From positions 1 to 22,103 of IMG/VR virus record IMGVR_UViG_3300027413_000455: DNA of 22,103 nt; one strand, given 5' to 3'. The notes below the pieces were generated by a model. It searched no databases. It saw nothing but the letters and a program-made list of their open reading frames with translations, and was not told the DNA's origin. Position numbers and translations under genes: made by a program. Source of the DNA: a virus. This document shows positions 3,144 to 22,103 of the stretch, piece by piece (position 1 is the first letter of the stretch; each line of letters begins with the position of its first letter).

Positions 3144-3811
3144 TGGAATGCAAATGGTGTAAAAAGTCATTTAAGTCTGAGACTACTCTGGCTGTCCATA
3201 TGTGCGTTAAGAAGCGTAGATTTGCAGACAAGGATATGAGCCATATTAGATTGGCACATAGGGCGTTCCAGATATTCTATGAAATAAACACTAGTGCAAA
3301 AACACCTAAGACTATGGAAGACTTTATTGTAAGTCAATACTATGAAGCATTTGTAAAGTATGGTAGAGCATGTACAGTAAACGAGTGGTTAGATCCTGTA
3401 AAGTACACAGAACATTTAATTAAGACCGGCGTAAAGTTAAAACAATGGGCGTCAGATAGAGAGTACGACAAGTATTTAAAAACTTATGTTAGAAAAGAGC
3501 CAGGATTAAAAGCATTGGAACGTACTGTTATATATCTTGCAGGATGGGGCGAAGAAAATAATGAGCCTTGGCAAGACTACTTTGATAAAGTATCGCCTAG
3601 CAGAGCAGTATATGATTTAAGAAGTGCAAAGGTAAGTCCTTGGATATTATATCTTAGCGAATCCGGTGATAAGTTATTAGAAAGGTTCAACAGTGAACAA
3701 GTTAAAATGATACAGGATGTAATTGATCCTCCATTTTGGATGAAGTTGTTTACTGCAAACAAAGAAGAAGCAAACGAAATTAAACAGGCTTGTAAGGAAG
3801 CAAAAATATGA
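3143..3811 (+). CDS. C2HC zinc-finger hypothetical protein, 222 aa
   Basis: The N-terminus has a compact finger C3-x2-C6-x12-H19-x-C21 (ECKWCKKSF then LAVHMC), typical of a C2H2/C2HC nucleic-acid or protein binding unit. The remaining 200 residues look mostly helical and contain many aromatic and charged residues (HRAFQIFYEI, DFIVSQYYEAFVKYG, LKQWASDREYDKYLKTYV). I do not recognise a named family. A role beside the replisome is suggested by its place directly after the gp62-like gene, with TAATG overlap. A distant gp59-type helicase loader (217 aa in T4) was considered because of size and context, but I see no motif to support it. Its stop overlaps thyX as ATGA. Confidence 0.85.
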   Translation: MECKWCKKSFKSETTLAVHMCVKKRRFADKDMSHIRLAHRAFQIFYEINTSAKTPKTMEDFIVSQYYEAFVKYGRACTVNEWLDPVKYTEHLIKTGVKLKQWASDREYDKYLKTYVRKEPGLKALERTVIYLAGWGEENNEPWQDYFDKVSPSRAVYDLRSAKVSPWILYLSESGDKLLERFNSEQVKMIQDVIDPPFWMKLFTANKEEANEIKQACKEAKI

Positions 3812-4476
3812 AAGCAAAATTAATTAGTTATAGTCAAGCACCAGCATTAACAGGTACTGACCCTAGTCCATTGGATTTAGTGGCTTACTGTGCTAGAGTA
3901 AGTAATCCAGACAATCAGAATAATACTGAAACAAATGAAAAACTTGTAAATTATTTGGTCAAACATAAACATTGGTCACCACTTGAAATGGTATCAGTGT
4001 GTATGGAGATTGAAACAACCAGAGACATTGCAAGACAACTGTTACGACATAGAAGTTTTAGTTTCCAAGAGTTTAGTCAGCGTTATGCAGACCCAACAAA
4101 GGATTTAGAGTTCGAGATACGTGAAGCAAGACTACAGGACCCTAAAAACAGGCAAAACAGTGTACCCACAGATGATGGACTACTACAACATGCATGGGCT
4201 GACTTGCAACAGAAGGTTATAGACACCGCCTTAGAAGCATATAACTACGCTCTAAGCAGAGGTATTGCTAAAGAGCAGGCAAGAGCAGTACTACCGGAAG
4301 GTAATACACTAAGCAGGCTGTACGTTAACGGTACGCTCCGAAGTTGGATTCATTATATTGAACTTCGTGGTGCTAATGGTACACAGTTAGAGCATATGGA
4401 ATTAGCATGGGCAGTAGCAGATGCAATTAAAAATATTTTTCCAATGGCTGAAGACTATGTAAGGAAGGAAATTTGA
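3808..4476 (+). CDS. thyX: Flavin-dependent thymidylate synthase ThyX
   Basis: Makes dTMP from dUMP using methylenetetrahydrofolate as carbon donor and FAD/NADPH as reductant, with no structural relation to ThyA. The signature RHRX7S is present as R80-H81-R82 to S90 within RHRSFSFQEFSQRY. The upstream segment HKHWSPLEM and the C-terminal LRSWIHYIELR and GTQLEHMELAWAVADAI segments also fit the family. At 222 aa it is a normal ThyX length. It overlaps the finger-protein gene as ATGA, and the following MazG-like gene appears to start on a TTG that overlaps its stop. It supplies thymidylate for replicating an AT-rich genome. Confidence 0.97.
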   Translation: MKAKLISYSQAPALTGTDPSPLDLVAYCARVSNPDNQNNTETNEKLVNYLVKHKHWSPLEMVSVCMEIETTRDIARQLLRHRSFSFQEFSQRYADPTKDLEFEIREARLQDPKNRQNSVPTDDGLLQHAWADLQQKVIDTALEAYNYALSRGIAKEQARAVLPEGNTLSRLYVNGTLRSWIHYIELRGANGTQLEHMELAWAVADAIKNIFPMAEDYVRKEI

Positions 4477-4727
4477 AAAAGAAAGAAGAAATGTTAGTAA
4501 TCACAATGGAAGAATGTGGTGAACTAATACAAGCATGTAGCAAGATGTTACGTTTTGGTGAAGATCAAGACTATACACAATTGCAAGAAGAGATTGGCGA
4601 TGTTATGTGCATGATTGAAATACTTAAAGATGGCGGACTTGTAAGCGATGAACAAATACAAGAACGTATCAAAGTAAAGAAAGAAAAACTGATGAAGTGG
4701 AGTTTATTGTACACAGAAGGAGAATGA
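4473..4727 (+). CDS. MazG-like nucleotide pyrophosphohydrolase, 84 aa
   Basis: All-alpha NTP pyrophosphohydrolase family. The metal-binding pattern E-x-x-E ... E-x-x-D is present at E14, E17, E40 and D43 (EECGELIQAC and EEIGDVMCMI). At 84 aa it is a single-domain version, so it may hydrolyse noncanonical or other NTPs as a dimer or tetramer; the substrate is not readable from sequence. The best start is TTG 4473, which overlaps the thyX stop (TTGA) and has a purine-rich AAGGAAGGA four bases upstream. An ATG at 4491 is the alternative and would remove six residues without touching the catalytic part. Confidence 0.85.
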   Translation: MKKKEEMLVITMEECGELIQACSKMLRFGEDQDYTQLQEEIGDVMCMIEILKDGGLVSDEQIQERIKVKKEKLMKWSLLYTEGE

Positions 4728-7887: not shown

Positions 7888-8678
7888 AGATGTTAATTAG
7901 TGGTTGCAGTTTTACAGGCGGGTCAGATGTAATACATGACGAAGAAACAGGACTAATAGTAAAGAACAACCAAACAACATGGTGCAGTTTTTTAGATGCA
8001 GATGTGAACAACATTGCATTAGGTGGAAACAGCAACCACAAAATAAGTCGTAGAGTGTTTGAAGAAATAGACAATACTTATGACTATGTTATAGTACAGT
8101 GGACAGCACTACATAGACAAGAGCGTTACAACACTATGACAAAGCAATGGGTGAATTTTTGTAATGCTGGGCATGTAATAACAAACGACCCTTACAATAA
8201 AGTAGGTGGTTCTTACGAGAACGGATTGTACGACTGGCACACAGACGACTTCAAGTATATGGATGATACTCCTGCAAATGCTGGAGTAGAAAAAACATTT
8301 AATTTAACAAACAAGGCTATGACGGCAGAATTATTATACGGTAAGTCGTTACAGGATTACAGGATAGACTTTTTAAAAACAGTTATCACAACACAACAAG
8401 CATTGAAAAAACGAAATATTCCATTTCTTTTTACTAGTATGTCTAACGAATCACATATACCTACTATAGCGGGCGGTTCCGGCTTTGATTTTAACAGCGA
8501 CAACATGTTGTGTGACTACGAAAGGCACTTATTAAAAGAAATAGATATAACAAAATGGACTGGTAGGCCAATGAGTTTTATGATGGATAACAAAACAGTA
8601 AGCCACGAAGACGGGCATCCAAGTCTGGAAGGACATAAATTAATATACAATCACATAAAGAAGGACATGAAACAATAA
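7884..8678 (+). CDS. SGNH/GDSL-type hydrolase-like protein, 264 aa
   Basis: Likely an esterase or acyl-hydrolase fold. Block I is GCSFT (residues 7-11) with Ser9 as the expected nucleophile. IALGGNSNHKISRRV supplies the Gly/Asn of the oxyanion hole, and DGHPSLEGH near the C-terminus supplies the Asp/His pair. YDYVIVQWTALHRQERY is the usual strand between them. The middle (residues about 90-150) has an insert rich in Tyr, Asp and Asn. There is no signal peptide, so it acts in the cytoplasm or on the virion. It overlaps both neighbours (ATGA, TAATG), an unexpected place between primase and helicase. The substrate is unknown. Confidence 0.75.
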   Translation: MKMLISGCSFTGGSDVIHDEETGLIVKNNQTTWCSFLDADVNNIALGGNSNHKISRRVFEEIDNTYDYVIVQWTALHRQERYNTMTKQWVNFCNAGHVITNDPYNKVGGSYENGLYDWHTDDFKYMDDTPANAGVEKTFNLTNKAMTAELLYGKSLQDYRIDFLKTVITTQQALKKRNIPFLFTSMSNESHIPTIAGGSGFDFNSDNMLCDYERHLLKEIDITKWTGRPMSFMMDNKTVSHEDGHPSLEGHKLIYNHIKKDMKQ

Positions 8679-10060
8679 TGGATCAAATACAAGATTACAA
8701 CGAAGAAATACAGCAGTTATTCCTCAACTTTTTAGTTACTGATCCAGAGTTGTTTGTTAGGGTAAACGGTATCATTCAGCCGTATATGTTTAACAAAAAG
8801 TTTCAAGCAACTGTTAAATTCTTAAAAGACCATGCCACAGATTATAGTAGCATACCCACTATTGACCAAATTAGTGCAACAACAAATGTAGACTTGGAAC
8901 GTATAGATGGTGTTAACGATAACCATGTGGATTGGTTCTTAGATAGTTTTGAAAGATTTTGTAGACACAAAGCATTAGAAAAAGCAATCTTAGAAAGCAC
9001 AGACTTATTAGAAACAGCAGACTATGGTGCAGTAGAAAACTTAATTAAAGAAGCAAGTCAAGTAGGATTAGTAAAAGACTTAGGACTAGAGTATTTTGAT
9101 AATCCTAAAGAACGTTTACAATACATTAAAAGTCAAGCAGGTGCAACAAGCACAGGATGGCGAGATGTTGATAGAAAATTATATGGCGGATTAAACAAAG
9201 GCGAGATTACTATTTTTGCTGGAGGCTCGGGTGCAGGTAAAAGTTTGTTCTTACAGAACTTAGGTGTTAACTGGAGTTTAGCAGGACTTAATGTAGTTTA
9301 CATTAGTTTAGAGCTTAGTGAACAACTTATTAGTATGCGTTTAGATGCAATGGTAAGTGGCTACAGTACTAAAGATGTTATGAAGAATATGGATGACGTT
9401 GATTTAAAAGTGCGTATGAAAGGTAAAGGTGCAGGCAAGTTTAGAGTAAAACAAATGAGCAGTGGTGTAACAACTAATGATGTTAGGGCTTTCATCAGAG
9501 AGTATGAAATTAATTCAGACTTAAAAGTCGATGTTGTATTAGTCGATTACTTGGATTTAATGATGCCTATTAACAGCAAGATTAGTGCTAATGACCAGTT
9601 TATCAAAGATAAGTTTGTATCAGAAGAGTTGCGTAACTTAGCAATGGAAACTGGTGTAATACTTGTAACAGCATCTCAGTTGAATAGAGGTGCAGTAGAA
9701 GAAATAGAATTTGACCACCACCATATTGCAGGTGGTATATCTAAGATACAAACAGCGGATAATGTGATTGGTATTTTTACAAGTAATGCAATGAGAGAAC
9801 GTGGTAGATATCAAATACAGTTTATGAAAACACGTTCTAGTAGTGGTGTTGGTAGTAAAGTAGATTTGAAATTTTGCCCTGATACATTAAGAGTAGAAGA
9901 TTTAGAAGAAGGCGATGAGGGTGCTGTAAGTGTAGCATCCAGTGGATTACTAGAACAACTTAGTAGGAATAAGAGTATCAAGGCAGATGAGCCAGAGCAA
10001 CAAGATACTGTGAACCAAGCATTAAACATGCGAGAGTTTATGAAAAAAAATGACCTATAA
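8678..10060 (+). CDS. Replicative DNA helicase, gp41/DnaB-type
   Basis: Hexameric 5'-3' helicase that moves on the lagging-strand template with primase. At 460 aa it is near T4 gp41 (475). The N-terminal domain (about 1-140) is helical. The RecA-like domain follows STGWRDVDRKLYGGLNKGEI, with Walker A GGSGAGKS at 182-189, the DnaB-type YISLELSE, Walker B DVVLVDYLDL from 285, then ILVTASQLNRG (motif H3-like) and MKTRSSSGVGSKVDLKF (motif H4/arginine finger region). The acidic C-terminal tail (DLEEGDEGAV) is typical for phage relatives. TAATG overlap with the SGNH-like gene couples their translation. A late promoter starts three bases after its stop. Confidence 0.95.
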   Translation: MDQIQDYNEEIQQLFLNFLVTDPELFVRVNGIIQPYMFNKKFQATVKFLKDHATDYSSIPTIDQISATTNVDLERIDGVNDNHVDWFLDSFERFCRHKALEKAILESTDLLETADYGAVENLIKEASQVGLVKDLGLEYFDNPKERLQYIKSQAGATSTGWRDVDRKLYGGLNKGEITIFAGGSGAGKSLFLQNLGVNWSLAGLNVVYISLELSEQLISMRLDAMVSGYSTKDVMKNMDDVDLKVRMKGKGAGKFRVKQMSSGVTTNDVRAFIREYEINSDLKVDVVLVDYLDLMMPINSKISANDQFIKDKFVSEELRNLAMETGVILVTASQLNRGAVEEIEFDHHHIAGGISKIQTADNVIGIFTSNAMRERGRYQIQFMKTRSSSGVGSKVDLKFCPDTLRVEDLEEGDEGAVSVASSGLLEQLSRNKSIKADEPEQQDTVNQALNMREFMKKNDL

Positions 10061-10351: not shown

Positions 10352-11512
10352 ATGAAGATTTTTGAATTTGGTGATTTAGTATACGAAAAAGGCGCAGAAC
10401 AAACCTATAAGAGAACCAATAAAGGTTCAAGCAGAGGCGGTGGAGACACTGGTACATCAGCATTATATAGGGGTCAAGAAAAAGGTGCAATGAGCAATGA
10501 CAAAATGGCACCTGGAAGAGTTGCCGCAATGGCTAAACAGAAAAAAATTGATAGGCAAAAAGCTCAACAAGCCGCAGGTAATGCCGCTGGTGCTAAGAAG
10601 ACTGGTGAAATAGGAAAGTTCGGAGCCGCCAGAGCCGCCGCAAAGAATATGATAAATCAAGTTGTTTCTCACCCTAACAGAGACGATGTTGCATTCCAGT
10701 ATATTCAAACAGGTAAAGGACACTCAGGTTATCAATGGCAAGAAGTTTCTAAAACTAAGAAAATTCCGGGCCAACCAGATATGGATGATCCAAAAGCATT
10801 AAGAGAGCCTATACCAGGTACATACCCAATAGCAGATAAAGATTCAATTAGTATGGAATTAACTTCTATTGCTAAAGGTACATATTCAGATAAAAGTATT
10901 GCAGATAAAGTTAAAGATAAGGCTGTTGACGCCATGGGCGGCACGTTAGCCAACAAAACAATGCAAGATCCAGGTGCAACCACAGCCGCTAAAGTAGGCG
11001 CAGTTGCAGGCGCTGGGTTAGGCAGATTGGCATCTAAAATGATTAAGAAGCCACAAGCACCTGATGTTAAACCTGAGTTGCCGTTACAAGGTCCTCACAT
11101 GAACGATATAAAAATGCATCAAAAAGGTATGGTTGACCAAAGCAAAGATCAAAGTGCTAGGATACAACATGCAAAAACATTTTTAGACATATTAAAGAAA
11201 CACGATGTTAAGTATGATGTTGACAAATATGTTCAAGCAATTACTCCTGCTATTAAGAAATCAGGACTACAGAAAGCGAACCCAGAATTTTATCAACACT
11301 TTGTAACACAAGTTAGAGCTATGAGAGCCGAAGCATTTGAATATGCAAACAGTGTATTAGAAGCGGCAGGCATTACTTGGGAACAAGTAGGTTATAAAGT
11401 ATCGTTGCATGAAGATGCAAGTGATGTTGTGTTCTTAACTCCTATAGTAGCAATGGCTGAGATAAACGAAGCAATTCAAATACAGGAACTTAAGAACTTA
11501 GCAGGCATGTAG
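10352..11512 (+). CDS. Probable head-associated protein with a capsid-targeting-like N-terminus, 386 aa
   Basis: No family recognised. It starts MKIFEFGDLVYEKG, the M-[K/R]-hydrophobic-x-E-F pattern shared with four other late proteins here, although the following site (VYE) fits the T4 protease consensus less well. Residues 15-110 are rich in Lys, Arg, Gly and Ala (GRVAAMAKQKKIDRQKAQQA, FGAARAAAKN) and likely disordered or DNA-facing. Residues near 215-235 form a Gly/Ala-rich stretch (AAKVGAVAGAGLGRLASK). The C-terminal 130 residues look helical. A structural or internal head protein fits the composition and late expression. The GTG of the next gene overlaps its TAG. Confidence 0.65.
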   Translation: MKIFEFGDLVYEKGAEQTYKRTNKGSSRGGGDTGTSALYRGQEKGAMSNDKMAPGRVAAMAKQKKIDRQKAQQAAGNAAGAKKTGEIGKFGAARAAAKNMINQVVSHPNRDDVAFQYIQTGKGHSGYQWQEVSKTKKIPGQPDMDDPKALREPIPGTYPIADKDSISMELTSIAKGTYSDKSIADKVKDKAVDAMGGTLANKTMQDPGATTAAKVGAVAGAGLGRLASKMIKKPQAPDVKPELPLQGPHMNDIKMHQKGMVDQSKDQSARIQHAKTFLDILKKHDVKYDVDKYVQAITPAIKKSGLQKANPEFYQHFVTQVRAMRAEAFEYANSVLEAAGITWEQVGYKVSLHEDASDVVFLTPIVAMAEINEAIQIQELKNLAGM

Positions 11513-12720
11513 TGGACAATCCACACATTAGTGGAACGGACAACTGTAAATTTATTTCTAATCCTTCTGGGGATATTTATTTTGCGTTAGAGAAGTCCTT
11601 TTGGTACGATATTGCACAACAATTAGATAAAAAAATTCTTATATTGTGCGATAGAACAATGTATTGTATTCCTGCAACATTGGCTTTCTATAGAGATCTA
11701 ACAAACTCCGAGTTTAAACCAGACCTTGTTATTATACTTTTTGCGTGTGAGCCAAATCTTATGGGTATAGATAGCGACACACAAACCGGCGGACACAAAA
11801 ATTTAGAAGCAAGTAAAAATTTAATGCTGAAGCAAAATGCTGATATACGCACTTTGTATGATAATATAAAAGAGCCTAAAGTTATTTTATCTTCAGATCC
11901 TAATCAAACAGATCCTTACTATGACATAATACACTTTAACACGTTTTATTTTCTTACATATAATCATGTAACAAAAACTATTCCACCCCAACACAAACAG
12001 CATAAATTATCTTGTTTAAATAGAGTTGCAAGACCTTCTAGAATACACATGTTCAGTAATTTAGTTAAAGAAGATTTTTTTAAAGATATATATTTTTCTT
12101 TTCATGGTTTAGGACTAATACAAACAAAATCAGGAAACATATTAACGGATAATAACACTATACCAAAGGCATTGTATGAGTATATGGGACCATCGCGTGT
12201 AGCACTTAGCGACACTGAACTACAGCACATCGATGACACCCTAAAAGAACAATGGCATCTATTGCCTATCAGAGTGCAAGAAAGATCGGAATATAATCCA
12301 ATGGATAAAGACAAACGACCAAGTTTAGATGTTAACGATGCCTATTCAAACAGTGTGTGTAATATAGCAACTGAAACTACTACATGGTGGGCAGACAATA
12401 ATGTGTTTATAACAGAAAAGACTTACAAGCCTGTAGCACTAGGCATGCCGTTCTTTGCACAAGCAGGATCTGGTTCAATAGCATACCTCAGAGAACAAGG
12501 GTTTGATGTGTATGACGATGTACTAGACCATTCATACGACACAGAAGTAGATTATGCTAAACGTCAAACTATGCTTATGGACAGCATAAGAAAGTTTATG
12601 CAATTAGACTATGTAAGAGATATTGATAGAGAAAAACGCAACGTTGAACATTTTTATTCAGATGAAACATACAACTCTTATTTCGACCCGTTTATAGAGC
12701 AGTTGAAGAATATCATATAA
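11512..12720 (+). CDS. Glycosyltransferase-like protein, 402 aa
   Basis: The C-terminal part has the signature NNVFITEKTYKPVALG (TEKT at 301-304), then MPFFAQAGSGSIAYLREQGF and a following D-x-S-Y-D segment. This ending resembles GT-B or fucosyltransferase-like enzymes of phages and bacteria, where the TEK segment contacts the nucleotide sugar. The N-terminal half is a possible Rossmann-like domain (KKILILCDRT, DLVIILFACEPN). There is no signal peptide. The start is GTG 11512, overlapping the previous TAG; the next in-frame ATG is over 40 codons in. It could glycosylate phage DNA, virion protein or host surface; none can be chosen from sequence. Confidence 0.55.
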   Translation: MDNPHISGTDNCKFISNPSGDIYFALEKSFWYDIAQQLDKKILILCDRTMYCIPATLAFYRDLTNSEFKPDLVIILFACEPNLMGIDSDTQTGGHKNLEASKNLMLKQNADIRTLYDNIKEPKVILSSDPNQTDPYYDIIHFNTFYFLTYNHVTKTIPPQHKQHKLSCLNRVARPSRIHMFSNLVKEDFFKDIYFSFHGLGLIQTKSGNILTDNNTIPKALYEYMGPSRVALSDTELQHIDDTLKEQWHLLPIRVQERSEYNPMDKDKRPSLDVNDAYSNSVCNIATETTTWWADNNVFITEKTYKPVALGMPFFAQAGSGSIAYLREQGFDVYDDVLDHSYDTEVDYAKRQTMLMDSIRKFMQLDYVRDIDREKRNVEHFYSDETYNSYFDPFIEQLKNII

Positions 12721-12731
12721 ACTGCTATAAT
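12703..12731 (+). promoter_or_regulatory. Candidate sigma70 extended -10 promoter before the KWDG protein
   Basis: TTGAAG (12703-12708), 17 bases, TATAAT (12726-12731) with TGC before it. A late box (12734-12742) follows two bases later, so early and late promoters appear to be stacked. Confidence 0.45.
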
Positions 12732-12733
12732 GT

Positions 12734-12742
12734 GATAAATAC
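12734..12742 (+). promoter_or_regulatory. T4-type late promoter before the KWDG protein
   Basis: GATAAATAC with predicted +1 near 12747 and a leader of about 19 bases. A weak GTGAG ribosome site precedes the ATG at 12766. Confidence 0.6.
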
Positions 12743-12765
12743 ATGTAACTTAACAGTGAGTTAAT

Positions 12766-14076
12766 ATGAAATTTATTGAAATATCAAAACCATTAGTCAC
12801 ATCTATTCTTAGTGAAAGCATATTGCTGGAGGGTAAGGATGGTAAAAATACCCATTTGGAACATTTAGAAGATAACATCTTAAACAAAGGGTATGCAGGT
12901 GCCAAAGAAGCAGTAGACTACTTATACAGTTTACATTCTATGCTTGACGGCAATGCAAAGTCGCCTATCAGTATGACCACAAAGTGGGACGGAGCACCGG
13001 CTATTGTTGCTGGTAAGGATCCTGCAACAGGCAAATTCTTTGTAGGCACTAAAGGTGTATTTGCACAAAAGGCAAAACTAAACTTCACAGAAAAAGATAT
13101 TGATACCAATCACCAAGATAAAACAGTAAAAGGTGAACTTAAAAGTGGTGAAGGTTTAAGAAAGAAACTTAAATTAGCACTTAAATATCTTAGTGGTTTA
13201 AATTGGGACACTGTAGCACAAGGCGACATGTTGTTTGCTACTACAGAAGACATTAAGACAGTTACTCTTGATAACGAAGAGCATATAATTTTTAAACCTA
13301 ATACAATAACTTATGCTGTTCCTAAGAACAGTGACATGGCAAAACAAATATTAAGTGCAGGGTTCGGTATTGTATGGCACACAGAATACGTTGGCGGCCC
13401 TACACTAGCAGACACAAATGCAAGTTTTGGATTTGACAGCAGTGTGTTAGGACAAGCAAATGGTGTTTGGCACAGAGATGCACTTATCAAAGACCTTAGC
13501 GGCACAGTTACAATGACTGCTGAACAGAGCGATGACATACTGAATGCTATAACTGTGGCAAATGAATATCTTAAGTCTATTGATGCAGACACATTTAAGT
13601 GGTTGCAACAAGGCACAGATTTAATAGGCGACAAGGTATTTTTACCTCAGCTCAAAGCACATGCTAATAATCAAGTACGTCAAGGACACTTTGATGAACC
13701 TACTAAATTTGCACAAGGCTTTGTTACAAAATATATTAATTATATGGAAAAAGAAATTGCTAAAGTCAGTACACAAAAAAGCATAGATGCTAAAACAGAT
13801 AAGATGGTACAAGGCGTTAAGTTTATTAAAGAGCATGTTCCAAGCATTGTAGCAGTATATGACTTGTACTTAAAACTCATTGAAGCAAAACTTAAGATTG
13901 TTAAGAAACTAGAACAAATTAAACAAATCGGAACGTTTGTACAGACAGACTCAGGTTTCGACGTTACGGCAGAAGAAGGATTTGTTGCTGTAGACAGAAT
14001 TGGTAACGCTCTTAAACTAATAGATAGACTAGAGTTTAGCAGAATAAACTTTGGTTCAGGCAAGCCGAGCTCATAA
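12766..14076 (+). CDS. KxDG-motif nucleotidyltransferase/ligase-like protein with capsid-targeting-like N-terminus, 436 aa
   Basis: The segment TTKWDGAPAIVAGKD has K73-W-D-G76, the KxDG core of covalent nucleotidyltransferases (ATP-dependent DNA and RNA ligases, capping enzymes), where the Lys carries AMP or GMP. Later segments could be motif III (VAQGDMLFA, G153-D154) and a Lys-containing strand HIIFKPNTITY (K177). A clear motif V (KxK) and motif IV (DGVV) are missing, so activity is uncertain. Residues 1-22, MKFIEISKPLV ... SILSESILLE, resemble a T4 capsid-targeting sequence with two possible cut sites (LSE17, LLE22). The C-terminal 150 residues are helical (KLIEAKLKIVKKLEQIKQ). I recall relatives in marine T4-like phages of unknown function. 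Confidence 0.6.
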   Translation: MKFIEISKPLVTSILSESILLEGKDGKNTHLEHLEDNILNKGYAGAKEAVDYLYSLHSMLDGNAKSPISMTTKWDGAPAIVAGKDPATGKFFVGTKGVFAQKAKLNFTEKDIDTNHQDKTVKGELKSGEGLRKKLKLALKYLSGLNWDTVAQGDMLFATTEDIKTVTLDNEEHIIFKPNTITYAVPKNSDMAKQILSAGFGIVWHTEYVGGPTLADTNASFGFDSSVLGQANGVWHRDALIKDLSGTVTMTAEQSDDILNAITVANEYLKSIDADTFKWLQQGTDLIGDKVFLPQLKAHANNQVRQGHFDEPTKFAQGFVTKYINYMEKEIAKVSTQKSIDAKTDKMVQGVKFIKEHVPSIVAVYDLYLKLIEAKLKIVKKLEQIKQIGTFVQTDSGFDVTAEEGFVAVDRIGNALKLIDRLEFSRINFGSGKPSS

Positions 14077-14077
14077 T

Positions 14078-14821
14078 ATGGCACAATACGACTTCCAAAT
14101 GATAAACCAGGATTTATCAGAGAGTAAATTATTAAGAACAACAAGTAACTTTGGTATGCTTAAAGGTAGGTCTATTGCAGACTTACTATATTTGCAAACA
14201 CTACAACTTATTATGTTTAACAGAGACTCTAAGCAACGAGATTACTCTGTTGGTTATGCAAGGAAGACAACACAGTTTGGTCCTTATGCACTTTTTAGAA
14301 CAACATCAACTGACATATATGTATTAGCATTTGCTTTAGATAATCCAGAGTACAAAAGTTTAAATATATCAACTAGAGAACAGAACATACTAAAATCAGT
14401 ACAATTTCAGAACAGAAGACATTTTAATTTTGTGAAAAGAATGGCTGTGCGTCCACCGAATAGAAGTGAGACAACTGCATTCCTTGTGAGATTAGAAACA
14501 CAATTAAAAATAACAAATTCTCTTTTTAAACAGTTAAGACGTTTGATTATAGATTGGGAAGATTTAAAATATGCCCAAAAGCAGTTTGTGGTATCTAAGT
14601 TAATGCAACAACAAACAATGCTAAGAGGCAAAGCAAGTGACTCATACGAGCATTTACATGCTATGAAAAGAGAAAGAAAGTATACTGACACTGGTAAAAA
14701 GTCTGGTTATAAGGACAGTCCAGTAATACCAACACTTACTAAGGCTAAAATACAAGGCACAACCGGGTCAGGTATAGGAAAGATTGCAGGCTACTGGGCC
14801 AGCGGTCGAAAAAAGGTATAA
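14078..14821 (+). CDS. Hypothetical late protein, 247 aa
   Basis: No family recognised. Basic and rich in Arg, Lys, Gln and Tyr, with long helical-looking stretches (DLLYLQTLQLIMFNRDSKQRD; QFQNRRHFNFVKRMAVRPPN) and a basic tail (GKIAGYWASGRKKV). The N-terminus has DLSE (12-15), which would fit a T4-type protease site, but it starts MAQYDF and lacks the M-[K/R] pattern of its neighbours. I start it at ATG 14078, one base after the upstream stop, not at the longer in-frame reading that overlaps that gene. Its TAA is embedded in the late promoter TATAAATA of the next gene. A structural role is inferred from position only. Confidence 0.7.
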   Translation: MAQYDFQMINQDLSESKLLRTTSNFGMLKGRSIADLLYLQTLQLIMFNRDSKQRDYSVGYARKTTQFGPYALFRTTSTDIYVLAFALDNPEYKSLNISTREQNILKSVQFQNRRHFNFVKRMAVRPPNRSETTAFLVRLETQLKITNSLFKQLRRLIIDWEDLKYAQKQFVVSKLMQQQTMLRGKASDSYEHLHAMKRERKYTDTGKKSGYKDSPVIPTLTKAKIQGTTGSGIGKIAGYWASGRKKV

Positions 14822-14824
14822 ATA
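14817..14824 (+). promoter_or_regulatory. Exact T4 late promoter TATAAATA overlapping a stop codon
   Basis: TATAAATA, the complete T4 late consensus, contains the stop of the upstream gene. With its last A at -6, +1 is 14830, the A of the ATG of the next gene, so the transcript would be leaderless. Confidence 0.65.
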
Positions 14825-14829
14825 TAGAT

Positions 14830-15342
14830 ATGAGAATTTACGAAATTATACAAAACATAGCAGAAACCCAAACAACGGCTGAAATGATTGACAGTGAGAT
14901 TGATGATGAGATAGGTCCTCCAGGAAACAGACGTCCTGGCTATGAAGGTGTAGACAAAGCGGCTGTAAAGTCTATAGCAATCGGCAAATTTACCACAGGT
15001 GGTCCAAGTATTACTCCGGGTATAGCAGTTAAAATGGCAATGATACAAGTACATCCGGAAATAGAAGATAAAATAATGAGACGTAATTCTAAGGCAAAAA
15101 CTAGTAGCCCAGATAAACAGCAAAGAAAAGGATTAGACATTGGTCCCAGTAAAAGTGTAAGTAAAGGCTGGACTGATAGGACTCACGGTCATTTAAGAAA
15201 GGATAGAAAGGCTATCGAACCAGGCGGCAGTAGCTCTTACAGTCGTGCCAAAACAGGTAATCAGAATTACAAATCCGGACAGGAAAAGGCTAGAAAATCT
15301 GCAGAATTTGTTAAGAATATTATCGGCTCTAACCCTAAATAA
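14830..15342 (+). CDS. Basic late protein with capsid-targeting-like N-terminus, 170 aa
   Basis: The N-terminus MRIYEIIQNIAET has the same pattern as other proteins in this block, with an IAE site (residues 10-12) that fits the T4 prohead protease consensus. Next is an acidic segment (EMIDSEIDDEIGP), then a middle domain (VDKAAVKSIAIGKFTTGG ... IAVKMAMIQVHPEI), and a disordered basic C-terminal half rich in Lys, Arg, Ser and Gly. No enzyme motif is seen. A packaged internal head protein is a reasonable inference. It is preceded by an exact late promoter and no Shine-Dalgarno. No terminator follows. Confidence 0.7.
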   Translation: MRIYEIIQNIAETQTTAEMIDSEIDDEIGPPGNRRPGYEGVDKAAVKSIAIGKFTTGGPSITPGIAVKMAMIQVHPEIEDKIMRRNSKAKTSSPDKQQRKGLDIGPSKSVSKGWTDRTHGHLRKDRKAIEPGGSSSYSRAKTGNQNYKSGQEKARKSAEFVKNIIGSNPK

Positions 15343-15366
15343 CACAATAATTAAAACTATTTTTAA

Positions 15367-15376
15367 GCCAATTGGC
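15367..15376. repeat. Perfect 10-base palindrome next to a late promoter
   Basis: GCCAATTGGC overlaps the first base of the CATAAATAA late box. It could be a protein-binding site or chance; it has no U-tract to act as a terminator. Confidence 0.35.
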
Positions 15377-15384
15377 ATAAATAA
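15376..15384 (+). promoter_or_regulatory. T4-type late promoter of the first small cassette gene
   Basis: CATAAATAA with predicted +1 near 15389 and a leader of about 26 bases that contains AGGAG (15403-15407). Confidence 0.65.
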
Positions 15385-15414
15385 GTGTAACATATACATT
15401 TTAGGAGAATAAAA

Positions 15415-15783
15415 ATGGCACAAACTCAAAACGCAGGGGCGGCAGTTGCCGCTGGTCACTATAGTGGTCTACCTTTAGCAGGTATCCAAATCGATTTCGG
15501 TGCAGACGTTTCAGCTAAATTGGCTGTAGGCGGATGTGTTGATTCAGTATTAAAAGCATTTGGTATTGAAGGTTTAACACCAGTAGCAGTTGGCACAGTC
15601 GACGCAACAGGTGGCGCTGGACAAGGACTTAGAATCCTTTTTGAAGGCGAACACGGTACTGACACTTATGATGGAACTAACTCAGAAACATTAGCGGCTC
15701 ACTTAGAAGACGTTATTATTTCATTGGGCACAGTTGATGGTGTTAACTTAGCATTAGCAACAATTACTGCTTTCGATCTATAA
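15415..15783 (+). CDS. Small probable virion protein, 122 aa
   Basis: Starts MAQTQNAGAAVAAGHYSG and is rich in Gly, Ala, Val and Thr with alternating hydrophobic residues, as in small beta-rich capsid decoration or tail proteins. No known domain is recognised. It has its own late promoter, a strong Shine-Dalgarno and its own rho-independent terminator, the arrangement expected for a highly expressed virion protein. The following gene also starts MAQT, but the rest of the two proteins does not align by eye. Confidence 0.7.
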   Translation: MAQTQNAGAAVAAGHYSGLPLAGIQIDFGADVSAKLAVGGCVDSVLKAFGIEGLTPVAVGTVDATGGAGQGLRILFEGEHGTDTYDGTNSETLAAHLEDVIISLGTVDGVNLALATITAFDL

Positions 15784-15804
15784 GAAATTGTAATAAAAAC
15801 AATG

Positions 15805-15835
15805 AAAAAGCACCATTTACTTGGTGCTTTTTTTT
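15805..15835 (+). terminator. Rho-independent terminator
   Basis: The arm AAAAAGCACCA (15805-15815) pairs with TGGTGCTTTTT (15822-15832) around a six-base loop, followed by a run of T up to 15835. It ends the 122-aa gene's transcript. Confidence 0.9.
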
Positions 15836-15845
15836 GGCTGATTTA

Positions 15846-15854
15846 GATAAATAA
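15846..15854 (+). promoter_or_regulatory. T4-type late promoter of the second small cassette gene
   Basis: GATAAATAA, eleven bases after the terminator T-run. Predicted +1 near 15859 gives a leader of about 46 bases, the longest in the window. Confidence 0.65.
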
Positions 15855-15865
15855 AAGTAACAAGC

Positions 15866-15883
15866 GTATGTTGAGAGACATAC
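15866..15883 (+). promoter_or_regulatory. Hairpin near the 5' end of a leader
   Basis: GTATGT (15866-15871) pairs with ACATAC (15878-15883) around TGAGAG. It lies seven bases from the predicted mRNA 5' end and before the Shine-Dalgarno AGGAG (15894-15898), so it could protect the mRNA without blocking translation. Confidence 0.45.
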
Positions 15884-15904
15884 AACCAAGTTTAGGAGAT
15901 TAAC

Positions 15905-16234
15905 ATGGCACAAACAAGAGTAAACGGTGGAGTAGTAGAAGGACAACTATTAGTAGGTTCTTTAAGCCACTTTATCATCGACGAAGTAGATACAGTAGAT
16001 GACATTAGTTCATTTGGTTTCACAGCAGGTGCGGCAAACAAAGGTGAAGCAGTAGTTTCATCTTTAGCAACAATCTGTACACCAGTAATTATTACTTCTG
16101 TATCAGCAACAGTAATGCACGTTGCAGTAGAAGGTCAACCTTCAGCGGCAAACGTATTAGCGGCAATCCAACCAGCATTAACTGGTAACGGTGCAAACGC
16201 TACTGTTACAGCAGGCGAATACAGAGTAGCATAA
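15905..16234 (+). CDS. Small probable virion protein, 109 aa
   Basis: Starts MAQTRVNGGVVEGQLLVG and is rich in Ala, Val, Thr and Gly with beta-like alternation (TPVIITSVSATVMHVAVEG) and no Lys-rich segments. No domain is recognised. Late promoter, leader hairpin, AGGAGAT ribosome site and a following strong terminator mark it as a monocistronic, highly expressed gene. A decoration or other abundant virion protein is the best guess. Confidence 0.7.
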   Translation: MAQTRVNGGVVEGQLLVGSLSHFIIDEVDTVDDISSFGFTAGAANKGEAVVSSLATICTPVIITSVSATVMHVAVEGQPSAANVLAAIQPALTGNGANATVTAGEYRVA

Positions 16235-16257
16235 GTTTAACTACTTTAGCAACTTTT

Positions 16258-16286
16258 AAAAAGCACACTACGGTGTGCTTTTTTTT
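16258..16286 (+). terminator. Rho-independent terminator
   Basis: AAAAAGCACAC (16258-16268) pairs with GTGTGCTTTTT (from 16273) around a TACG loop, with T through 16286. Like the first terminator, it is followed by GGCT. A smaller TGGCT/AGCCA stem (16286-16290 and 16301-16305) comes next. Confidence 0.9.
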
Positions 16287-16321
16287 GGCTTTCGTTCCGG
16301 AGCCATATTTTTGTGTATAAT

Positions 16322-16330
16322 GATAAATAC
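16322..16330 (+). promoter_or_regulatory. T4-type late promoter of the 134-aa gene
   Basis: GATAAATAC directly after TATAAT (16316-16321). Predicted +1 near 16335, and GGAG (16343-16346) lies six bases before the ATG at 16353. Confidence 0.65.
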
Positions 16331-16352
16331 TACAAATAACACGGAGACACAC

Positions 16353-16757
16353 ATGAGTATGACAAGAACAGGAGCAATGGGATCAGTTGAAGTACTAACT
16401 GGTAACATAGAATTTTTTACATTGTTTACATCTTTGGATATATCCGTAACTGGTGATTTTGCAGATGCTACACAAAAAGATTTTGAGAGTGTTGTTCAGG
16501 TAATTGGTTTGAGAGCTATGCCAACAGTGATGAATAATCCTGTATTTTTAAATGGTATAGGGCAGAACTTACTAGAGAATTACGGAGCACCAAGTTTAAC
16601 AGGTGCAGGTTATATCTTTAAGTTCGCTACAGAACAGCCCGGAGCACATACGGTACAGACATTAATAGACGAGTTAGACCTTGTCGTTTTAAACGATGGG
16701 ACAATTAATACTAAAACAAGTGTTAATATGGAATTTACTAAACAGGATTTATTGTAA
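16353..16757 (+). CDS. Small probable virion protein, 134 aa
   Basis: Starts MSMTRTGAMGSVEVLTGNIE; the rest mixes beta-like and helical segments (IEFFTLFTSLDISVTGDF; DFESVVQVIGLRAMPTV). No domain recognised. I chose ATG 16353, which has a GGAG ribosome site and sits 18 bases from the predicted mRNA start; an in-frame reading from 16275 would run through the terminator and promoter. There is no terminator after it, so it shares a transcript with the membrane protein, basic protein and giant amidoligase-like genes that follow. Confidence 0.7.
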   Translation: MSMTRTGAMGSVEVLTGNIEFFTLFTSLDISVTGDFADATQKDFESVVQVIGLRAMPTVMNNPVFLNGIGQNLLENYGAPSLTGAGYIFKFATEQPGAHTVQTLIDELDLVVLNDGTINTKTSVNMEFTKQDLL

Positions 16758-16758
16758 A

Positions 16759-17007
16759 ATGGAAGAACGTAATCAACCGAAGCCAGTCGAACAACAAGTG
16801 TATGCACAAAAGGATAACCTAGAAGCACACATTATTGCAGATATGCTAAGAATAGAAAGTATCACTACTGAACTGAGAGAGTTCAAAGAAGATACAAAAC
16901 AAAGACTGAATAAATTAGAGAACTGGCTAGTAGCAATTGTTGGAACAAGTTTCACAACACTTATTGCTGTGGTAATCGGTTTGATGGTTAATGTGTTTGG
17001 AAAATAA
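16759..17007 (+). CDS. Small membrane protein with coiled coil (holin-like or structural), 82 aa
   Basis: The N-terminal part is hydrophilic and helical (DNLEAHIIADMLRIESITTEL, then REFKEDTKQRLNKLENW) and fits a coiled coil. The C-terminus has one membrane span from about residue 57 to 80 (LVAIVGTSFTTLIAVVIGLMV) and ends in GK. This layout, soluble coiled coil then one membrane helix, occurs in XhlA-type phage holin-associated proteins and other small phage membrane proteins. I start it at ATG 16759, one base after the upstream stop. TAATG overlaps the next gene. No lysis enzyme lies nearby, so a lysis role is only one option. Confidence 0.7.
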   Translation: MEERNQPKPVEQQVYAQKDNLEAHIIADMLRIESITTELREFKEDTKQRLNKLENWLVAIVGTSFTTLIAVVIGLMVNVFGK

Positions 17008-17288
17008 TGAGACTAGAAGATATAACAGAAGATACAATTACTGAAGCCAGAATGGTTTGGCGTAGAAGCGGCAAGAAGATCAAACGTGCTGTTAGATGTA
17101 CTAGCGGTAGGCGTAAAGGCAGAGTGGTTAGTAGCCCAGCACAATGTTCTGCACCTGTCAATATGAAAAAACGTATGACGTTGAAAAAGACAAAAGCAAG
17201 AATGGGTGCAAGAATGTCGAGAAAATCACAAAGAACAAAAAGACTTAATCCTACAAGTAGAAGATTAAGATCATTAAACAGGCGATAA
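17007..17288 (+). CDS. Very basic small protein with capsid-targeting-like N-terminus, 93 aa
   Basis: About one third of the residues are Lys or Arg. Residues 1-13, MRLEDITEDTITE, are acidic and end in an I-T-E site before Ala14; cleavage there by a T4-type prohead protease would release a purely basic protein (MVWRRSGKKIKRAVRC onward). Two Cys (in RCTSGRR and AQCSAP) flank a GRRKGRVV segment. Similar small basic proteins in marine T4-like phages have, as I recall, been called prohead core proteins. DNA binding inside the head is the likely role. Translation is coupled to the membrane protein (TAATG). Confidence 0.75.
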   Translation: MRLEDITEDTITEARMVWRRSGKKIKRAVRCTSGRRKGRVVSSPAQCSAPVNMKKRMTLKKTKARMGARMSRKSQRTKRLNPTSRRLRSLNRR

Positions 17289-17291
17289 TAC

Positions 17292-20200
17292 ATGAAATTT
17301 ACTGATGTGAGAACTTTAGAAAGTGTACTAGCAGAATATGGTATGAATTCCGGAGCAAGTACACCCACTAGTCAACAAAAGACTGGGGCAACAGCAAAAG
17401 CAAATGCTAAACCTACAACTACTAAAGCACCTGCTAAAGTAGATAAAGGTAGCCCAACAGTAACACCCGGATTGGATGTTAAAGATGCAGAGCCTGAAAA
17501 AGTAGAACCAACTTATACAAAGTCTAAAGCAAAAGATATAGAAGTTGATGCAGAATATCACAACGACAAAGGCGAAGTAGCAGGTAAAGTAGTTAGTAAG
17601 GTAGGGAACAAACCAAATCCAGATAAAGTTGTAATACAAGATCCTAAAGGTGAGTATCAACTAGTCGACCCAGATGAAGAAGTACAAGTTTTAAATGCTA
17701 GTAAACTTTCCAAGTTGAGTAAGTCCACAGCATCTTCCTTCAATATTAAAAATCACAGCAAAAAAAGACTTGCTAAATTAAAGACCAACATGAAAAAACT
17801 TGTGCGTAAGTTTAAATTGCGTGAACAAGGACCTGAACCAATATTTGAAATAAACTTTAATAGAAAAAATGTTGCACAGCAGGCACTTAACAGTCCTATT
17901 AAATGTGGATTTGAAGCAGAGACTGTATTTACAGAAGTAGCAGACAGAGGAAGTGATGACGGAGACTGGTTATACGAATACAATTGGTACGACATCGAAG
18001 ACTTTATTAGAGATCAAGAAGGCAGTGGGTCTGTTGATACAATAGTTGAAGCATACAAAGAATGGATTTATGAAAAGGCATATGATTTAGAAGGCGACAT
18101 CATGCATGACCTAGTCGTTGAAAGAAAAGAAGATGAAGATGAGTTAAATGATTTCGTTGAATCAATGCTAGATGAAGATGATATAGAAGCGTACAAAGAA
18201 GAAGAATTAGAAGGTATGGACGATGAGCAAAAAGAAGAGTTCGAAGATTGGGACTTTATTGCATGGGGCAGACAGTATACCGAAGAACAACGAGAAGATG
18301 AATACATTGAGTGGCTCGAAGAGAAAATCAGAGACAATGGTGAAGCATTAGAGTTAGCAGTTGAGTCAGCCGAAGAAGACAACGATATGGATCAATGGGC
18401 GGCTAACGAATATGGTAGTTGGAGTAGTTGTTTAGGCGAACATGGTATCTACTTATACGATGAAGGCGGTTCAGGCGAAGGAGTTAGCGAAGTAGGCGAT
18501 ATGTTAAGAATTTGGGCCAGAGATAACAGTAAAGTTAGTGATGATGTGGAATCAGGTGAGTACCACTCGAGTTATGGTACTAACAATGACTTTTGGCGTG
18601 TAGAGACTGACAGCAGTATTGACGCAGATAGCGGCACAGGCGCAGAAGTTATTTCTCCTGTTTACGATACACCTAAACAAATGATGGAAGAAATGAAAAG
18701 CCTGTTCGATTGGTTTGCAAAGGAAAATGTAGAAACAAACAGCAGTTGCGGATTACATATTACAATGAGTTTAGACAGTGAAAATAAAGAAGAAGTTAAT
18801 CCAGTTAAACTTGCTGTCCTGTTAGGCGACAAATATTTATTAAGTACATTTGGCAGAGCAAACAACAGTTATGCAAAGTCACAGGTTGCTAGTTTGAAGA
18901 AGTCCGCACAAGAGTTAAAATCAAGTCCAGAAAACACTAAGACTATAAAAAACATAGAAAATATTCTTAAGAAAGGTATTAATCCAGGCAAGTTTAGTTC
19001 TATAAACTTTAAAGACCAAACTGATAGCCAGACTGGTAATCAACTTATAGAATTTAGAATTGGCGGTGGCGATGACTATCACTTAAACTTTGATACAGCC
19101 GCAAAAGCAGTTATACGTTATGCTGAAACATTAAGTGCGGCATATAGTGATAAACTGTACAGTAAAGATTATGCAAAAGCATTATTCAAATTAATAAACA
19201 GTTTAGATGAAATTGATGCAAAAGATATAGAACGTGTTAAAGGTAGATTCGAAATAGAACTACCTATTGTAGATGTTATTAAAGACTACTTCGATAAAGC
19301 CATTTATATTGATTCAATGGATTCGGTTGCTGTAGCAGTAAACAGTCTAACGAAATATAGAGAATTATCTCAGCCAAATGCAGATGAGCAGTGGAAACAA
19401 GCACTTGTAGATTATGAAGAGCGAACTGGTAAGAAAGTAGAAGTAGAAGAAGTAGAAGAAATGGAACCTTTGCAGGCACAGGAACCTATTACAAGGCCTT
19501 ACAAACAAGCACCAAGTAAACAAGCACCATTGTATTTGAAAAAAGCACAGGAAAACTTTGCACTAGCAATTGGACAGGCAGGATTTGACCTTAGTTCAAA
19601 TAAAAGTAGAACAAAACCTAATGCGAAATCTATTGGTGAATTTAGAAAATCTTTAGCAGACTTTGAACTTACATATGATAAGTTGGGTCAGCTGATACTA
19701 AAACTACAAGATAGAATTCAAGTTGCCCAAGCGGCGAATGATACACCACAGAAAAAATTAACTACAATACAAAACGGTGTCGACAAATTATTTAAGAAAT
19801 CTATTATTACACTTCCTGCGTTTTTAAGTGGACCAGACAGTGACAAAATTGTTAAAGGAATGTGGTCAGCATCACAAAGTGGTGAATTACAAGATGGCGA
19901 GAAAAATAAACAATTCTTTAACGCAATAGCAAGTGCTACTAATGTTGATGTAGACACAATTGTTAGTGCATGGGATTCTGTTAATAAAAACGAGTTCAAA
20001 CGATTTAATCAGGACTTGGTAAAAGGTTCGTATAACAGTCCTGGCATTAATGCCAGCACTTCCTGGTTTCCAGTAGGCGGCCCAGTTAACAAAGCAGGAC
20101 TAAAGAAATTACTTGCTCACTTGGCAGATTATGAAGAGTGGAATCACCCTGTTAAGAAAGGTCATAACCCAACTACAAGTGGAGATGATTCATACACAGA

Positions 20201-22103
20201 TAATGCAATAAGTAAAATGCAAATTAAATTGAGAAAAAGATTTCTAGAAATACAACGTGTAAAAGATACACAGCCAGCACAACATTACGATATGCTAAAA
20301 GTAATAAGTAAATCTTTAACAGAATTAGTACCGGCAGTAAAAGCCACAGAGAAAATGATGGCAGAAATAGATCCTTCATTGAGAGGTGTTGAACCGCACG
20401 GTACGTCACAGGACGGATTGGATTACTTTGGTATGAGATCGTCCCAAGCAGAAACAATGACAACAATTGCTAGACAATTATCAAACCCAGATGCCTCAGA
20501 TCCTTTTTCTGAAACTCCTGTAATTCAATTACAGCAACATCTACAAGCCTATTTAAACGATGTGTTTGAGAGAAATCATCTTGCTAAAGCAAAGTACGGT
20601 GCTGATGTATTTACTAAAGGTAAAATACCTGAACTAATTAAGACCAGAACAGATGCTATATCTAAATTTATAAACACAATAGACAAGCTCGGACAAGAGC
20701 TAGGATTTGATAGTACTGGTATCGATGTTGACCAAAAGAAACAACTTCCTAAAAAGCAAAAACAGTTTATGAAAAAACACGGTGACCCGTCGATTGCTAA
20801 AATAAACGCATTTAGTTTTGGTGGCGATGTAATGGTCAAAAAAGAATTTGCTAAAGAAATAAAAACAATAGGCGATAATGAACTAAAGTCTAGAGTACAG
20901 CAACCTAGTTCAATACATTCAACTAGTTACAAAGATATATTAATTATTCCATGGGCACACAGTAGTGCAATAAGAAATTCTATTGAAATATTAAATAACC
21001 CAGAAAAATATAAAGACAACTGGAGATGGCGAGTTGCTGAAGAAATGAAACGTAGATGGGAAAGCAAGTACGGAATTACTTATGACGAAATGTTTGATCA
21101 ATATGTATCTTATAACGACTCTGGTATTAAACGAATGCTTCAACAAAGAGGCATAGAGTTTACTGATGAATTAGGTGACGGTAGAGAACCTAACTTTGCT
21201 CCACTAGTTACACAAGAAGTAACAAAAGGGCCAGACGGTGAACCGTTTGATCCAAGATCAGCACAGGTTTGGAAAATGAATAATGAAAGTGTATTTAAGA
21301 AATTTGATAATTTGCCATTAGAAGAGCAAATTAATATTATTAATAAAGTTAGTAAAGACAAAATTGATAAGATTTACGAAGCATCAAAGGATATTCCTAG
21401 TGGACAACACATATGGAACGTGGCATATAAAGATGGTAGTAATAAAGAAGTAATGGCGTCAAGTCCATATGGTGTTTATCTACAATTAGCACCTGGAGTG
21501 CGTTATCCAGAGAAGCAAAAGAAAGCATTGGGAATCAAAAGTATAAAAAAAGTGAGACAGCCTAATCGAAAGCCTAAAGGCTCGTTTGGATTTAACAATA
21601 AAGGTTTCACTAAAGATCAAAGAGATCTTAAAAAAGCTAAAGATATAGAGTTTAACAAAGACCCTGATTCATATGTACATGATCGAAATAGAGTTGGCGT
21701 TGAAGAAAGTGTTCCAGACTTTAAACAAGTAGATACTATTAATAGATTAATGGCAGATCATTTTCCAGTAGGAGACCTTAAAAAACAAATGTTAGCCTAC
21801 CAAGCGATTCCTGTACCTGCAATGTTAGATCATTTTAGACAACTAAGAGCAGAAGCAGGCGATGATGCATGTGCTAGGAACATATTGCAAATGTTTGTAG
21901 GTGTATTACCTGATGAAACAAAAGCAAAAATTAAAATGACAGAATGGAGCAAACAGCACGTTACTAAACTAATTAACGAGTATACTGACTTAGGTGTTGA
22001 AAAAGATGCTATTATTAAAACTATTAGCGGACTAGATGCCAGCAATGAGCAACATGCTAATATACTAGATAGAATTTACAAATTACTTAACAGTGACCAT
22101 ATT
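17292..22103 (+). CDS. Giant protein with amidoligase-like domain and capsid-targeting-like N-terminus (3' end outside window)
   Basis: An open frame of 1,604 codons runs off the window without a stop. Residues 1-15, MKFTDVRTLESVLAE, match the late-protein N-terminal pattern and end in an L-A-E site. A Lys/Thr/Pro/Ala-rich linker follows. Residues about 200-620 carry the motif order of the amidoligase-2 group of COOH-NH2 ligases: CGFEAETVF (205-213), WRVETDSS with GAEVISP (435-456), CGLHITMS (486-493) and IEFRIGGGDD (586-595). Such enzymes use ATP to form amide or peptide bonds. A very acidic insert lies between the first and second motifs (around residues 280-370). The remaining 980 residues are helical, Lys-rich and unrecognised. 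ATG 17292 lies three bases after the upstream stop. Confidence 0.7.
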   Translation, partial: MKFTDVRTLESVLAEYGMNSGASTPTSQQKTGATAKANAKPTTTKAPAKVDKGSPTVTPGLDVKDAEPEKVEPTYTKSKAKDIEVDAEYHNDKGEVAGKVVSKVGNKPNPDKVVIQDPKGEYQLVDPDEEVQVLNASKLSKLSKSTASSFNIKNHSKKRLAKLKTNMKKLVRKFKLREQGPEPIFEINFNRKNVAQQALNSPIKCGFEAETVFTEVADRGSDDGDWLYEYNWYDIEDFIRDQEGSGSVDTIVEAYKEWIYEKAYDLEGDIMHDLVVERKEDEDELNDFVESMLDEDDIEAYKEEELEGMDDEQKEEFEDWDFIAWGRQYTEEQREDEYIEWLEEKIRDNGEALELAVESAEEDNDMDQWAANEYGSWSSCLGEHGIYLYDEGGSGEGVSEVGDMLRIWARDNSKVSDDVESGEYHSSYGTNNDFWRVETDSSIDADSGTGAEVISPVYDTPKQMMEEMKSLFDWFAKENVETNSSCGLHITMSLDSENKEEVNPVKLAVLLGDKYLLSTFGRANNSYAKSQVASLKKSAQELKSSPENTKTIKNIENILKKGINPGKFSSINFKDQTDSQTGNQLIEFRIGGGDDYHLNFDTAAKAVIRYAETLSAAYSDKLYSKDYAKALFKLINSLDEIDAKDIERVKGRFEIELPIVDVIKDYFDKAIYIDSMDSVAVAVNSLTKYRELSQPNADEQWKQALVDYEERTGKKVEVEEVEEMEPLQAQEPITRPYKQAPSKQAPLYLKKAQENFALAIGQAGFDLSSNKSRTKPNAKSIGEFRKSLADFELTYDKLGQLILKLQDRIQVAQAANDTPQKKLTTIQNGVDKLFKKSIITLPAFLSGPDSDKIVKGMWSASQSGELQDGEKNKQFFNAIASATNVDVDTIVSAWDSVNKNEFKRFNQDLVKGSYNSPGINASTSWFPVGGPVNKAGLKKLLAHLADYEEWNHPVKKGHNPTTSGDDSYTDNAISKMQIKLRKRFLEIQRVKDTQPAQHYDMLKVISKSLTELVPAVKATEKMMAEIDPSLRGVEPHGTSQDGLDYFGMRSSQAETMTTIARQLSNPDASDPFSETPVIQLQQHLQAYLNDVFERNHLAKAKYGADVFTKGKIPELIKTRTDAISKFINTIDKLGQELGFDSTGIDVDQKKQLPKKQKQFMKKHGDPSIAKINAFSFGGDVMVKKEFAKEIKTIGDNELKSRVQQPSSIHSTSYKDILIIPWAHSSAIRNSIEILNNPEKYKDNWRWRVAEEMKRRWESKYGITYDEMFDQYVSYNDSGIKRMLQQRGIEFTDELGDGREPNFAPLVTQEVTKGPDGEPFDPRSAQVWKMNNESVFKKFDNLPLEEQINIINKVSKDKIDKIYEASKDIPSGQHIWNVAYKDGSNKEVMASSPYGVYLQLAPGVRYPEKQKKALGIKSIKKVRQPNRKPKGSFGFNNKGFTKDQRDLKKAKDIEFNKDPDSYVHDRNRVGVEESVPDFKQVDTINRLMADHFPVGDLKKQMLAYQAIPVPAMLDHFRQLRAEAGDDACARNILQMFVGVLPDETKAKIKMTEWSKQHVTKLINEYTDLGVEKDAIIKTISGLDASNEQHANILDRIYKLLNSDHI

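Follow-up and report, generated by a model that had tools for sequence, protein, structure and literature searches.

A putative T4-type capsid-targeting leader on five proteins from an uncultivated marine jumbo-phage clade

Results

Five genes of the window begin with a common tag

The stretch of DNA analysed here (the window) is a 22,103-nt (22.1-kb) IMG/VR fragment in which 28 genes were scored for an N-terminal tag. Five of them, named throughout by their first nucleotide, begin M-[KR]-[IFL]-x-[ED]-[FIV] (10352, 12766, 14830, 17007 and 17292; Table 1), and these are exactly the five starts at which the initial annotation had placed a shared N-terminus. One of the leaders reads MRLEDITEDTITEA. 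Shuffled sequences gave a mean of 0.02 matches and reached a count of five in none of 20,000 rounds, and the pattern occurred at 0 of the 167 internal methionines of the window. An [IL]xE motif lies within residues 5–24 in 4/5 tagged genes versus 3/23 others; in those four it closes the leader, the exception being 10352, which has VYE only. The sites that had been read at residues 10–22 of four of the proteins (LSE and LLE, IAE, ITE and LAE) could all be found. Three of the five proteins (10352, 14830 and 17007) are basic, as had been read; 12766 and 17292 are not (Table 1). The neighbours named as untagged (11512, 15415, 15905, 16353 and 16759) indeed lack the tag; gene 14078 did not appear in that list. 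The block had been ended at 17340 and is in fact longer, since open reading frame 17292 continues past the end of the window.

Table 1. Features of the tagged block (all on the + strand; leader coordinates in nt of the window)
Feature	Coordinates	Strand	Details
Replicative helicase (gp41/DnaB-like)	8678..10060	+	Synteny anchor of the block with PA5oct and Melnitz
Tagged protein 1	10352..11512	+	386 aa, pI 9.4; matches tag pattern
Putative leader of 10352	10352–10387	+	~residues 1–12; MKIFEFGDLVYE; weakest site, VYE 10–12
Tagged protein 2, DUF6267 family	12766..14076	+	436 aa, pI 6.4
Putative leader of 12766	12766–12831	+	Residues 1–22; LSE 15–17, LLE 20–22; body from ~residue 27
Gene 14078, possible sixth substrate	14078..14821	+	247 aa, pI 10.2; no K/R tag
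Tagged protein 3	14830..15342	+	170 aa, pI 9.8
Putative leader of 14830	14830–14865	+	Residues 1–12; MRIYEIIQNIAE; IAE 10–12
Tagged protein 4	17007..17288	+	93 aa, pI 12.0; AR-MVWRR body after leader
Putative leader of 17007	17007–17045	+	Residues 1–13; MRLEDITEDTITE; ITE 11–13, also 6–8
Tagged protein 5, giant protein	17292..22103	+	3' open, ≥1604 aa within the window; full-window relative G001 has 1902 aa; pI 5.2
Putative leader of 17292	17292–17336	+	Residues 1–15; MKFTDVRTLESVLAE; LAE 13–15
Amidoligase_2 domain inside giant protein	18564..18962	+	PF12224, 25.2 bits against a cut-off of 22 (narrow margin)

Two further features of the window were recorded. Upstream of the primase and helicase, positions 1515–4727 hold adenine phosphoribosyltransferase-, ThyX-like and MazG-like genes, as judged by eye. 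A scan of the window for late promoters returned a single exact TATAAATA at 14817, and near matches (69 versus 66 expected) were not in excess.

The tag marks the same families in related phages

With the DUF6267 gene as query we retrieved 39 viral loci, among them G001 (65.7 kb, 90% identity), G003 (217 kb) and G002 (340 kb; both 79%). The unmodified pattern marks 7 of 75 genes in G001 (0.04 expected) and 8 of 401 in G002 (0.23 expected), and with an extended regex 9 of the 20 G002 genes of the block were tagged versus 3/381 elsewhere (p=5e-11). For this block test, as for the PA5oct and S-CREM2 tests below, we scored every in-frame start, treating real and shuffled sequences in the same way, because strict scoring of called starts missed real ones. 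Loose capsid-targeting (CTS) regexes applied to reference phage genomes barely exceeded shuffles and were therefore replaced by tighter ones. The window helicase is closest to those of PA5oct-like phages (54% identity to that of PA5oct), and the order of the block around it is syntenic in both PA5oct and Melnitz.

We then surveyed gene families across 119 related loci (1,336 unique ORFs). The initial annotation had proposed searching related phages with the N-terminal pattern, and this search marked the same five families: DUF6267 (57 of 72 members tagged), the 14830 family (38/51), the 17007 family (35/43), the giant-protein family (17/21) and the 10352 family (18/61). Many of the remaining 10352-family members are fragments or begin M[LQ]I[NE]EI, and the G002 homologue starts MRLEQIEEAPVPG (MRLEQIEEA). 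Beyond these large families, about 20 small accessory families of the 119 loci are also tagged. By contrast, no tagged member was found in 25 other clusters of at least 8 members, some of them probably spurious reverse-frame ORFs and others including the helicase, the primase and structural-looking neighbours. Nor was the tag found in replication or nucleotide-metabolism families of G002 and the related loci. The copies in G002 are thus concentrated in this block, rather than being equally common in early genes, which is what the initial annotation had said would speak against its reading.

These counts bear on whether chance, or a generic bias of phage gene starts towards MK-rich sequence, could produce the pattern. 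The pattern was derived post hoc from the window itself, which gives such an explanation its opening, but the shuffles and the independent genomes (G001, G002 and, below, PA5oct) speak against it, as does the absence of tagged members from all 25 other clusters. Moreover, the hydrophobic/acidic pattern is kept while individual residues change. We consider a chance origin to be refuted by the family-cluster counts and the enrichment in the G002 block, and give it next to no probability.

Cleavage-type sites fall at the border between leader and body

In the 17007 family (50 distinct homologues), leaders of 12–16 aa that vary strongly in sequence and length precede an invariant RMVWRR-type body, and [ILVMF]xE forms the end of 31 of 31 distinct leaders, right at that body (shuffle mean 9.6). 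Likewise, all 7 distinct leaders of the giant protein end in [ILVMF]xE before YGMxxGxSTP (1.3 in shuffles). For DUF6267 the motif stands no more than 3 aa from the body in 30 of 41 distinct leaders (9.9 in shuffles), and in the remaining ones it is mostly one residue further away; residues 1–30 of the AlphaFold model of 12766 have a pLDDT below 50. The 14830 family joins a conserved MKINEIIxxE-type head to highly divergent bodies.

Homologues with and without a leader locate the same border. The DUF6267 proteins of the cyanophages S-PM2 and P-HM2 are leaderless and start at the leader/body border (MATQNKHLEHLED / MSKNTHLEHLED), so this family is not always in need of the tag. Its tagged members in Melnitz, C48C1, HTVC008M and DLP_6 carry ITE, ITE, LVE and LAE, respectively, just before the core. 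The only reference-phage homologue of 17007, from Salicola phage SCTP-2, is also leaderless (it starts MAKLIYGRSGSK), and its alignment to 17007 begins at residue 14, directly after ITE. The cytidylyltransferase family, like DUF6267, gains or loses a leader: it is leaderless in P-HM2 (MKKVYVTFGRLNPPT) and tagged in Melnitz (MKKFSEIIEARGDTAVFTFGRFNPPT), and in C48C1 a similar tag, MIKNFSQYLLEEE, is found upstream of the annotated start.

Near residues 10–17 the 14078 family has a conserved boundary, [IL]xE|[AS][RK]L[FYW]R (LSE 13–15 in the window protein), which is present in most distinct N-termini whose start looks right. Judging by this boundary, the 14078 product may be an additional protease substrate.

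Two tagged families look enzymatic

Protein 12766 matches PF19782 (DUF6267) over residues 28–432 with an E-value of 1.2e-96 (324.8 bits versus a curated cut-off of 27). The family has an invariant KWDG motif that could correspond to the lysine motif of nucleotidyltransferases, and BFVD matches tie it to S-PM2 proteins named cytidylyltransferase. A fold search of its model (pLDDT 72, moderate) against the PDB returned no match; a nucleotidyltransferase or ligase nature, read from KWDG, is a guess. Within the giant protein, the amidoligase motifs CGFEAET, GAE-I-SP, TGLH-TMS and EFR are conserved in 32 homologues. Foldseek related the model of residues 195–720 (pLDDT 83) to glutamine synthetases (prob 0.95, E 2e-3), although the TM-score was low (0.16–0.19). 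Judged by motifs and domains, each of the two families seems to consist of enzymes or of proteins with an enzyme domain.

Relatives encode a gp21-type protease, and tagged genes lie beside it

The initial annotation had suggested looking for a gp21-like protease. No prohead protease gene lies within the 22-kb window, but the 340-kb relative G002 encodes one of the gp21 family (PF03420, 5.8e-25), and PF03420 was found in every reference relative searched (PA5oct, SCTP-2, Atu_ph07, Melnitz, cyanophages and T4). Its GEL-HP and GVSSRG motifs are conserved among the proteases of G002, Melnitz, the cyanophages and T4. One tagged G002 gene outside the block, MRLNEFYEPEDDQS, is found two genes away from the protease; in PA5oct, gp333 (MKINDIITEG), likely a relative of that gene, lies between portal and protease. 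PA5oct has a second annotated head maturation protease, gp212 (NC_071039, 180349–181020), far from gp331; both were detected by mass spectrometry.

The tag on the small gene between portal and protease raises another explanation, namely that the tagged proteins are scaffold-like parts of the prohead core, cut by the protease at maturation and serving assembly or DNA condensation without being injected. Very basic proteins such as 17007 would suit DNA condensation, and IPIII of T4 has a role in assembly (PMC9026906). Against this, the amidoligase-domain family and the DUF6267 family with its invariant KWDG look enzymatic, and the bodies diverge fast, as do those of T-even internal proteins. A further argument comes from a virion proteome: a kinase, a SAM hydrolase and a cytidylyltransferase are among the tagged virion proteins of S-CREM2 (next section). 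Altogether, we regard a purely prohead-core role as rather unlikely.

Tagged proteins are enriched in the virions of cultured relatives

The GenBank record of the Pseudomonas jumbo phage PA5oct flags proteins detected by ESI-MS/MS. The pattern of the initial annotation, unchanged, matches 8 PA5oct ORFs (0.7 in shuffles), and 5 of these 8 are virion-detected versus 85/520 (16%) of the other ORFs (p=0.0047); the other 3 of the 8 lack MS detection. A T4-register regex gave 2/6 virion-detected matches in PA5oct, which is not significant (p=0.27); patterns in the strict T4 register seldom occur in the clade of the window phage. At the threshold used, the five tagged proteins of the window had no match among PA5oct proteins.

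For cyanophage S-CREM2 we used a regex derived from residues 4, 7, 8 and 10 of T4 IPIII and the published virion proteome (PMC10665884). All five matches are in that proteome versus 46/216 other ORFs (p=5.6e-4), and these proteins with T4-register leaders are a SAM hydrolase, an APH/ChoK-like kinase, a cytidylyltransferase and two hypotheticals. The PA5oct test is the cleaner of the two, because we already knew the S-CREM2 N-termini when that regex was composed. In addition, the cytidylyltransferase T4-GC190 has been detected in virions of S-SM1 (PMC3037559). A virion-detected Cas9-like nuclease of S-CREM2 (OR473000, 7704–10313) reads MTSRWSNWSTGSDKKPLRFASFMAEAAVDQ; its capsid-targeting-like stretch lies at residues 17–27, which would fit either a wrongly placed start or an internal leader.

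Since virion detection in relatives cannot tell head from tail, the tag might instead sort proteins to tail, baseplate, membrane or an infection compartment, with the [IL]xE sites being incidental. This is hard to reconcile with the named baseplate and tail proteins of the S-CREM2 virion list, which are without the tag, with the site coinciding exactly, in three families, with the border between leader and body, or with the recurrence of the tag beside portal and protease genes, and we judge it very improbable.

Discussion

The initial annotation had likened the common N-terminus to the capsid-targeting sequence of T4. The specificity of the tag, the leader/body borders, the protease of the relatives and the virion enrichment in PA5oct all argue for this reading, and we think it very probable that the five window proteins carry a T4-type capsid-targeting leader. 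Since the tag resembles the one that loads proteins into the T4 head, it probably marks proteins that are packed in the particle and may be injected.

The internal proteins of T4 have leaders of 10–19 residues that gp21 cuts after L/I-x-E, and in IPIII residues 4 and 7 direct packaging and residues 8 and 10 processing (PMC9026906); across T-even phages a conserved leader sits on divergent bodies (PMC3012670). Like the CTS of IPI, IPII, IPIII and Alt, the window tags are short leaders at the N-termini of proteins that are unrelated and often basic, and they have a basic residue 2, an acidic residue, two hydrophobic residues three apart and an [LI]xE cut site; a gp21-family protease is likewise present, here in relatives, and the leader is kept as the bodies diverge. 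Unlike in IPIII (hydrophobic residues 4 and 7), the hydrophobic pair is at 3 and 6, and a variable spacer usually precedes the cut site, as in the bipartite leader of T4 IPI (MKTFKEFTSTTTPVSTITEA) and unlike in IPII and IPIII. Compared with the tag of IPIII and IPII, the window tag is a putative bipartite variant that is shorter by one residue. The cargo differs from that of T4, comprising DUF6267, the giant amidoligase-domain protein and the MVWRR basic protein. In T4 itself, the uncharacterised 54-aa gp61.1 (NC_000866, 18966–19130) starts MKTFKEFIKEDMVAGDSG, a near-perfect IPIII-like capsid-targeting leader.

Among other phages, PA5oct is syntenic around the helicase and has tagged proteins detected by ESI-MS/MS. 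N-terminal routing into the head is also seen in the long head-protein propeptides of SPN3US and phiKZ, those of SPN3US being cut by a gp21-family protease (PMC5694885), and in the signal of P1 DarB (PMC9024508). Those signals are longer, ~30 residues in P1 and mostly >100 in SPN3US, versus 12–22 in the window. Our literature search found no paper naming DUF6267 together with phage and none that connects cyanophages or PA5oct-like phages with capsid targeting; subscription papers were largely outside it, which makes this weak evidence.

By the mechanism we propose, the amphipathic head of the leader (a basic residue at position 2, hydrophobic ones at 3 and 6 and an acidic one at 5) would dock the protein to the prohead core during head assembly. 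A gp21-type protease would then cut after [ILV]xE at residues ~8–22 and free the mature protein inside the head, where it would stay with the DNA, probably leaving with it at infection. We infer packaging and cleavage for the window phage in this way, and delivery to the host by analogy with T4. If the tag is a capsid-targeting leader, the block that follows the replicative helicase gene would therefore be a cargo cassette, encoding a small and very basic protein, two further basic ones, the DUF6267 protein and the giant amidoligase-domain protein. Overall, we read the block as a variation on the T4 system that serves other cargo, carried by an uncultivated clade of marine jumbo phages.

More tentatively, the leader could be an address label, legible in the sequence, for a whole injected marine jumbo-phage payload, in which the amidoligase-domain protein (~1,900 residues) and a DUF6267 enzyme would modify molecules of the host as infection begins, with a T4-register form of the label explaining the virion enzymes of cyanophages; we see this as possible, though short of probable. 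If the capsid-targeting reading itself is right, one could predict what uncultivated jumbo phages of the T4 superfamily carry in their virions by reading the first 20 residues that each gene encodes. There would also be a testable reason for the kinases, SAM hydrolases and NMNAT-like cytidylyltransferases in purified cyanophage virions, enzymes that the authors of the cyanophage proteomes could not tell from contamination. Finally, it would yield new candidate host-takeover proteins, the giant amidoligase-domain protein among them.
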